IMG/VR virus record: IMGVR_UViG_3300030116_004362
Span: 1-23,904 of that record
Strand: one strand, 5' to 3'
Length of the DNA stretch: 23,904 bases
From: a virus
Positions 4,286 through 5,612 of this stretch are shown here, in pieces. The notes below the pieces were generated by a model, which was not told the origin of the DNA, ran no database searches, and saw only the letters and a list, made by a program, of their open reading frames with translations. How positions within the stretch are numbered: the stretch's first letter is position 1; each line of letters starts with the position of its first letter. The position numbers were made by a program, and so were the translations under genes.

Positions 4286-4330
4286 ATTGCCTCCTACTGT
4301 TCTGATAATTACCTTGTTGTAATTACCATT

Positions 4331-4356
4331 GAGCACCCTGTTTAAACAAGGTGCTC
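4331..4356 (-). repeat. Intergenic hairpin 1 of the repeated cassette
   Basis: The arms GAGCACC and GGTGCTC flank the core CTGTTTAAACAA (plus-strand view). Only one base pair fails in DNA (C/A); on the transcribed strand it is a U-G pair, so the RNA folds into an 11-bp or longer stem with a UUAA loop. On its gene-end side lies TGATTAGCTAG, shared with the other cassettes. On the start side a doubled TAATTACC stretch leads to the AGGAGGCAATATG of the 117-aa gene. Confidence 0.8.
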
Positions 4357-4372
4357 TAGCTAATCACATAAA

Positions 4373-4668: not shown

Positions 4669-4708
4669 AATGCCTCTCTTTCTTTTGTTCGGTGTGTTAC
4701 CACCATAA

Positions 4709-4732
4709 AGCACCCTGTTTAAACAAGGTGCT
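4709..4732 (-). repeat. Intergenic hairpin 2 of the repeated cassette
   Basis: The arms AGCACC and GGTGCT flank the same CTGTTTAAACAA core. Next to the gene end is TGACCAGCTAG, a slightly changed form of the cassette's TGATTAGCTAG. The linker toward the next start (GGTGGTAACAC on the coding strand) differs from that of the other copies. Confidence 0.8.
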
Positions 4733-4743
4733 CTAGCTGGTCA

Positions 4744-4920
4744 CTAATTTACTTTTGTAAGTCTTTGTAACTCGTGTTTGTAGTTATTCACTTTATCAGA
4801 AATAAAATTATTTATAATCTCATCTCTAAGGGCTTGTCCCTCCTCAGCAGGTAACCACTCACTTACAACAGCTAATGATAAAATTAATTTATCTAACTGT
4901 TCTTGAATATGCTTATCCAT
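4744..4920 (-). CDS. Unknown helical protein, 58 aa
   Basis: The frame opens exactly at the shared AGGAGGCAATATG and runs MDKHIQEQLDKLILSLAVVS to LQRLTKVN, then stops just before the TAGCTAG/hairpin element, as its longer neighbours do. It looks all-helical and acidic (WLPAEEGQALRDEIINNF). The matching start and end elements make this a confident gene despite its small size. Function unknown. Confidence 0.72.
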   Translation of the reverse strand: MDKHIQEQLDKLILSLAVVSEWLPAEEGQALRDEIINNFISDKVNNYKHELQRLTKVN

Positions 4921-4940
4921 ATTGCCTCCTATTTTTTTTG

Positions 4941-5100
4941 CTACGCTTTGTAGCTAGAGACCGACAAGTTGATAAGTTCAGGGCTGCACTATCAATCCTG
5001 CAAGTCTCTAGCTACTCACCAGGGTTGATAATCAAGGGCAATATGTTTTGCCCAGTGAGTAGCAATATTTTTTCTACTTGTTTAAACAACCTATTGCCCT
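4941..5100 (-). ncRNA. Structured leader: two long stem-loops plus TGTTTAAACA site
   Basis: This 190-nt gap is far longer than the others in the operon and densely self-complementary. Stem A is 11 bp: TAGCTAGAGAC (4951-4961) with GTCTCTAGCTA (5004-5014). Stem B is 9 bp: GCTACTCAC (5011-5019) with GTGAGTAGC (5055-5063), containing an inner GGGCAA/TTGCCC hairpin (5036-5041, 5048-5053). A and B share bases 5011-5014, so they either stack or compete. A small GCTAC/GTAGC hairpin (4940-4954) and TGTTTAAACA (5079-5088) flank them. It could be a regulatory leader for the 58-aa gene or a stand-alone RNA; no known riboswitch class is recognised. Confidence 0.5.
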
Positions 5101-5109
5101 AAGTTGTTT

Positions 5110-5553
5110 TTAGAATGGCGGCTCTGTAGAGTTGCTCACTCTGAGCTTGTCATTGTCATCATAATAAATCTGACTGACATCTACATTGTTAGCCTTGGCG
5201 AATTTGTTTTGGTCAATCTCATCTTGTAAAGCTTGCTTGTACTCTTTCAAGTCTTTGCCTGTTAGATTGTTGACTGGCACAATATCAGTGTTCTTGTATG
5301 GCATTCTCAATGACATGCTTATCCCTGAGTTTGCCATCCTGATTTGATTTCGTACCTTGTCAAATTCTGTCTCTGTCATGATTTCGACCTTGTCTGTATA
5401 TCGTGCATCTACACTTATACCGACAAGCGAATTCATCTTAGTCCAGGTTTCTCTAGCAGCATCTTTGTCAGCTGCTTTGACAACCTGTATATCTTGAAAC
5501 TTACTGAGCATGCATCTTGCAATTACAATAAATTCTTTTTCTTTGGTATCCAT
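5110..5553 (-). CDS. Unknown protein, 147 aa
   Basis: No family is recognised. The first half (EFIVIARCMLSKFQDIQVVKAADKDAARETWTKM) looks like an alpha/beta unit of a type common in small phage proteins; residues 70-130 are charged and helical (KDLKEYKQALQDEIDQNKFAKANN), ending in a flexible tail. It starts at the shared AGGAGGCAATATG and ends just before the structured leader at 4941-5100. Confidence 0.68.
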   Translation of the reverse strand: MDTKEKEFIVIARCMLSKFQDIQVVKAADKDAARETWTKMNSLVGISVDARYTDKVEIMTETEFDKVRNQIRMANSGISMSLRMPYKNTDIVPVNNLTGKDLKEYKQALQDEIDQNKFAKANNVDVSQIYYDDNDKLRVSNSTEPPF

Positions 5554-5579
5554 ATTGCCTCCTTTGTATAGTTACCATT

Positions 5580-5605
5580 GAACACCCTGTTTAAACAAGG
5601 TGTTC
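5580..5605 (-). repeat. Intergenic hairpin 3 of the repeated cassette
   Basis: The arms GAACACC and GGTGTTC surround CTGTTTAAACAA. Compared with hairpin 1, one G-C pair is replaced by A-T on both arms at once, a compensatory change that supports a selected base-paired structure. TAGTTAGCTAG begins with the stop codon of the protease gene. Confidence 0.82.
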
Positions 5606-5612
5606 TAGCTAA

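Follow-up and report, generated by a model that had tools for sequence, protein, structure and literature searches.

Intercistronic RNase III sites in T7-like phages are irregular hairpins located on the sense strand between consecutive early genes, while loop-E (AGUA/GAA) RNAs include, for example, the T-box and glutamine riboswitches. Corndog-type (cluster O) mycobacteriophages contain a 17-bp invariant palindrome, which is present in many copies per genome, both between and inside genes, and recombination takes place between such palindromes (PMC4351075). The element described here (4921-5109, minus strand) was found in a window of 23,904 nucleotides, the whole stretch of DNA analysed, itself taken from a virus record of 26,256 bases. 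It is tentatively identified as an intercistronic strand-exchange element that could well set expression in a leftward early operon.

The phage and its early operon

The phage is uncultured and marine. Its terminase has only distant relatives among GenBank phages (about 22-25% identity), thus belonging to a phage of an uncultured lineage, and the SprT, terminase and portal proteins of IMG/VR relatives are about 60-85% identical to those of the window. The left part of the window is a leftward operon of small genes, which encode a Rad52-type annealing protein, an SprT-like protein and many proteins of unknown function; from 8.6 kb onward, the terminase, portal and structural genes are read rightward. 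At its head, the leftward operon has roughly 1 kb of DNA that is largely non-coding (7013-8181). On the minus strand of this region, just after TATGGTATAGT, lies a conserved non-coding stretch (7925-8035), also present in L119, L120, L122, L123 and L125, which could form a pseudoknot (GATAGATTC-CAGGCA-...-GAATCTAT-...-TGCCTG) and is positioned like a promoter-proximal antitermination RNA.

The element, hereafter the leader, separates two minus-strand genes: an upstream gene of 147 aa (5110-5553), which is an orthologue of L110:1677-2105 and others, and a downstream gene of 58 aa (4744-4920) without family match. Searches with the 147-aa gene's own sequence returned no close relatives. The ribosome-binding site (RBS) and start codon of the 58-aa gene (GGAGGCAATATG; 4918-4929, minus strand) recur within the leftward operon before several genes. 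An earlier note on this DNA had described the gap between the two genes as the only long one in the operon, which holds locally; besides 7013-8181, the operon has other gaps of at least 110 nt.

Stems and alternative pairing of the leader

As the operon lies on the minus strand, the RNA to study is that of the minus strand, and the stems belong to this sense strand of the leftward early operon. Every stem of the earlier note was recovered at its coordinates, namely a perfect 11-bp stem (4951-4961/5004-5014), which extends to 12 bp plus one G-U pair, and a perfect 9-bp stem (5011-5019/5055-5063) with an inner 6-bp hairpin (GGGCAA/TTGCCC; 5036-5053), where 5011-5014 are common to both stems as claimed. 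The TGTTTAAACA site (5079-5088) and the second occurrence of CTACTCAC at 6340 were confirmed as well. The stems go beyond chance, as had been supposed: a perfect stem of at least 11 bp appeared in 8 of 2000 dinucleotide shuffles, and two stems of at least 9 bp in 5 of 2000, where the leader has three. In the proposed comparison of folding energy with shuffled sequence, the minus-strand RNA (minimum free energy -65.3 kcal/mol, z -6.3) surpassed all 200 shuffles, and the fold of the plus strand (z -3.4) is far weaker.

On the minus strand, the 5' to 3' order is TGTTTAAACA, arm Z, a loop with GGGCAAAACATATTGCCC, arm A, a 40-nt insert, arm B, arm C, A8 and GGAGGCAATATG. Arm Z (GCTACTCAC; 5055-5063) is the perfect 9-bp complement of the start of arm A (GTGAGTAGCTAGAGACT; 5003-5019), of which the first 9 bases pair with Z and the last 13 with B, the two portions overlapping by 5 bases. 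Arm B (GGTCTCTAGCTAC; 4950-4962) forms 12 Watson-Crick pairs and one G-U pair with A, and arm C (GTAGC; 4940-4944) is, in the folds, the partner of Z in the A:B state and of the end of B in the Z:A state. The inner hairpin in the Z-A loop (GGGCAAAACATATTGCCC; 5036-5053) contains ATATTGCCCTTG. Arm A cannot hold both the 9-bp Z:A and the 12-13-bp A:B helix, so that the shared bases render the two mutually exclusive, as in an attenuator, and thus provide the pivot on which a strand exchange could turn. The A:B state was calculated at -65.3 kcal/mol and the forced Z:A state at -62.1 kcal/mol, a difference of 3.2 kcal/mol, and in growing-prefix folding Z:A persists until B is made, after which A:B is formed.

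The window's copy has A8, not U8, after the closing hairpins, and was rejected as an intrinsic terminator, the U-tract being absent. A terminator test on the leader returned one weak match (5053-5036) with a poor tail.

Relatives of the leader and the Z-A-B family

In close relatives, the orthologous upstream gene is followed by a simple double hairpin or by a long structured RNA. The upstream gene of L110 qualifies as an orthologue through family alignment (its protein has 21% identity to that of the window), the orthologous gap aligns to the leader with a score of 53 (none of 2000 shuffles was as good), and ATATTGCCCTTG is again present in the Z-A loop. L227 aligns with a score of 49 (none of 500 shuffles was as good) and has nearly identical arms (TGAGTAGCTAGATACC/GGGTATCTAGCTATC), with Z again upstream and the same Z-A-B order; the arm core TAGCT(T/A/C)G and its complement occur in both (window GTAGCTAGAGAC, L227 GTAGCTAGATACC). 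L105, L118, L122 and L125 did not align to the leader above shuffles, and a pattern derived from the window and L110 matched only L110 and its near relative L247. The leader region has no BLAST match in GenBank phages, and the collections searched contain no close homologue of its exact sequence.

The alternation of Z, A and B with longer arms is found in L105, L110 and L118, while L118, L122 and L125 contain tandem arrays of A-insert-B hairpins, where arm A is typically GTAGGTAGCTTGTAGCACATA and the inserts are mostly 30-135 nt, the same inserts recurring on different contigs. The 15-mer TAGCTTGTAGCACAT matches at least 120 viral stretches, and the few matches without a B arm look coincidental. 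Among the matches listed, 85 of 120 loci contain at least one homologue of a window gene, and 104 of the 109 copies that could be oriented are in the early-operon sense. The arm 20-mer has no match in bacterial and archaeal genomes, nor has the array by BLAST in GenBank phages. Several inserts (L127, L167, L188, L184 and L172) close with a 5-bp stem carrying a 7-nt loop (GTAGGTTGAACTCCTAC, for example), an arrangement reminiscent of the tRNA T-arm; ARAGORN detected no tRNA in the loci tested. Other non-coding RNAs of about 220-600 nt occur in the same operon (L122 7520-7811, L125 7266-7488, L119 3763-3987 and L110 2889-3490), with perfect or near-perfect closing stems of 21-26 bp and no Rfam match in these loci.

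On the operon-sense strand, the stems contain 371 G-U against 48 A-C pairs, and the ordinary modules described below 82 against 1, although these counts include copies of common descent and register conserved positions more than once. The sense orientation together with G-U rather than A-C pairs thus indicates an RNA feature. Arm flanks that were unselected for pairing, a set including opposite-strand copies, show pairing at 83% of their positions, compared with 58.5% once the partners are shuffled; a separate list of arms chosen for pairing was left out of the covariation evidence.

The window element has the alternation of arms by which the Z-A-B family is defined here (9-bp Z:A and 12-13-bp A:B), lies in sense orientation in the early operon between the terminase side and the annealing-protein gene, and is linked by homology to L110 and L227. 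Its position, orientation and arm sequence make it look like a diverged member of this family, which in turn seems to be lineage-specific and previously unlisted, with copies spread over the early mRNA of many related marine phages.

The R1 linker hairpin of relatives

R1, a conserved hairpin located between array units, consists of P1, AGUARGA, P2, a tip with GCCCUGUU, P2', ACYGAA and P1'. In 35 sequences, where P1 is partly selected for pairing and P2 is unselected, its covariation is 0.403, compared with 0.192 for shuffled and at most 0.133 for slid pairings. Within the arrays, P1 joins arm B of a unit to arm A of the following one, and R1 can therefore form only once these arms have come away from their own units. 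Five copies have T8 immediately after P1', which on the sense strand gives them the form of an intrinsic terminator. With the R1 model, 100 loci gave 45 matches scoring above 47 bits, some of which lie on overlapping stretches, and a long-range partner for the GCCCUGUU loop is absent from most loci.

Applied to the window, the same model gave the leader 12.3 bits (E 1.7), which is not significant; in this alignment, CAGCCCUG is set at the conserved tip, and CAGCCCTG (4979-4986, minus strand), at the tip of the A-B insert, falls at the conserved loop. The leader was rejected as an R1 copy on this score and on the absence of the internal loop (AGUARGA opposite ACYGAA). Covariation in relatives, which had been named as a check of the leader, is found in the wider family (R1 and the arm flanks), the leader's own copy being alignable with L110/L247 and L227 only.

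Proposed working of the element

During transcription of the leader, Z:A would form first, and A would shift from Z to B as B emerges, whereupon the freed Z would close on C. This exchange would change the set of exposed C-rich loops and the exposed portion of the flanking mRNA, and may thereby set the processing, stability or translation of the 58-aa gene, by way of attenuation or of access to the start site among others. In the arrays of relatives, the same choice of arms would decide whether R1 is formed. Attenuation is a plausible original use, as some R1 copies run into U8 and are terminator-shaped. Strand exchange is favoured by the sense-strand fold, the Z:A-first prefix folding, the alignments with L110 and L227, the longer Z-A-B arms of L105, L110 and L118, the R1 copies with U8 at their end, the orientation of the family, the G-U bias and the covariation; against it stand the missing R1 internal loop, A8 in place of U8, and homologues of the window's own copy in L110/L247 and L227 only. 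The switching, its trigger and any effect on expression are inferred.

A broader proposal, more speculative than the foregoing, is that this marine phage lineage possesses a new class of modular early-operon RNA arrays, made up of A-insert-B hairpins with exchangeable inserts, an R1 formed only when neighbouring units open, and arms with two partners each. Such an array might work as RNA switches linked in series or might carry interchangeable small RNAs, and the window's element would represent a minimal diverged case.

The start region GGCAATATG, which the next gene has in common with several operon genes, is complementary to the loop segment CATATTGCC (5037-5045, minus strand). A translational switch is an unlikely explanation of the element, where CAUAUUGCC of the loop would pair with the downstream gene's RBS and start codon (GGCAAUAUG) and block translation unless the inner hairpin holds CAUAUUGCC; action in trans is also conceivable, as the same RBS precedes several operon genes on which CAUAUUGCC could act. 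The nine pairs are perfect, GGAGGCAATATG recurs in the operon, and the fold with the CATATTGCC:GGCAATATG pairing, which hides the start site of the 58-aa gene, is just 4.3 kcal/mol above the minimum. However, in the minimum fold this start site is left free, the pairing is unconserved (L110 retains about five pairs with its own start site), and the arrays of relatives often precede other elements rather than start sites.

Ordinary modules and the palindrome

Most nearby gene junctions contain an ordinary intercistronic module, composed of TTAGCTAG, one stem half, a TGTTTAAACA loop, the other stem half and TATGGTAA. One such module lies at 6337-6369 (minus strand), and others are located at 5573-5612, 4701-4744 and 4324-4367. 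The module stems vary among copies yet remain complementary, the copies being partly selected for pairing, and the start of the leader's arm A matches the flank of ordinary modules (family D14). Downstream of the 147-aa gene's orthologue, two hairpin modules in L123 enclose an extra small gene where L122 has a single module, as if genes move as module-bounded cassettes.

The wide occurrence of these modules and the long irregular stems on the sense strand would also suit plain processing or stabilising hairpins between genes, which are cut by RNase III or block exonucleases as at T7-like intergenic sites, and in which the alternative pairing is idle. This explanation is rather improbable, as it accounts neither for the recurrence of Z-A-B in L105, L110, L118 and L227 nor for the conserved R1 loops; strand exchange is preferred.

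The palindrome TGTTTAAACA, present at 5079-5088 on the 5' side of the element, occurs at 9 sites in the window against 0.18 expected, an over-representation of about fifty times. It is dispersed in close relatives too, even inside genes (L004, L016, L007, L039 and L057), and L004, L005 and L006 have a module in common after which their sequences diverge. An element acting at the DNA level, where TGTTTAAACA would be a protein-binding or exchange site at a cassette boundary or recombination site and the hairpins would be by-products, draws on this dispersal, on the different continuations after the common module, on the extra gene of L123 that is missing in L122, and on the recombination between palindromes of Corndog-type phages (PMC4351075). 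It is nevertheless improbable and, for the RNA arms, disfavoured, as neither the sense orientation of 104 of the 109 copies (among the matches listed) nor the excess of G-U over A-C pairs is expected of a DNA site, and most array-bearing contigs among the matches listed are without the palindrome. A chance structure or decayed remnant with no present function, to which the lack of close homologues of the exact sequence and the weak R1 score would lend themselves, is hardly credible given the fold z-score of -6.3, the rarity of paired long stems in shuffles and the alignments of the leader to L110 and L227.

Database comparisons and classification

In the Rfam search that had been proposed as a check, no Rfam 15 family scored above its gathering threshold, and a relaxed threshold gave chance matches only. 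No aptamer family was matched in Rfam at the standard or relaxed setting, and ARAGORN detected no tRNA or tmRNA. Group I introns, hammerheads, TIGR arrays and retrons were dropped as candidates, their signatures not being seen by inspection and in Rfam. The part of the literature that was searched for the palindrome or for such RNAs contains no earlier description.

The leader had been regarded as a regulatory RNA, a riboswitch-like leader or a stand-alone RNA of a new kind. What stands is a structured RNA outside Rfam, as indicated by its fold z-score, the covarying helices of relatives and the sense-strand G-U pairs. Nothing points to a ligand-binding aptamer as in a riboswitch, a stand-alone RNA gene is unsupported, and the element is no isolated leader but belongs to a numerous set of intercistronic elements within one phage lineage. 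As a family of structured RNAs that is abundant and unlisted, these elements of uncultured marine phages would make RNA strand exchange testable in a phage early operon, and repeats resembling the inverted repeats of mobile DNA appear, from their sense orientation and sense-strand G-U pairs, to be selected as RNA.

Comparison with known systems

In relatives, the R1 linker shares with loop-E RNAs an AGUA that faces GAA, but differs from these in having no Rfam match and a conserved GCCCUGUU tip, and the internal loop is missing from the window copy. Like the palindrome of Corndog-type phages, TGTTTAAACA is short, invariant and repeated between and inside genes; however, it is 10 bp rather than 17 bp, it is located in the loop of hairpins with variable but paired stems, and most array-bearing phages of the Z-A-B family are without it among the matches listed.

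The element shares with attenuators (terminator-antiterminator leaders) two mutually exclusive helices that compete for one strand and an order of pairing set by transcription, and the R1 copies of relatives that end in U8 are like intrinsic terminators. Unlike attenuators, the window copy lacks a U-tract and lies between genes inside an operon, and no leader peptide, tRNA or ligand site was found here. Irregular sense-strand hairpins between early genes are shared with the RNase III sites of T7-like phages, which differ from the present elements in the conserved TGTTTAAACA loop of the ordinary modules, the alternative pairing and the tandem arrays with exchangeable inserts. The window element resembles attenuators by its working principle and T7-like processing hairpins by its place, and is assigned to neither class.
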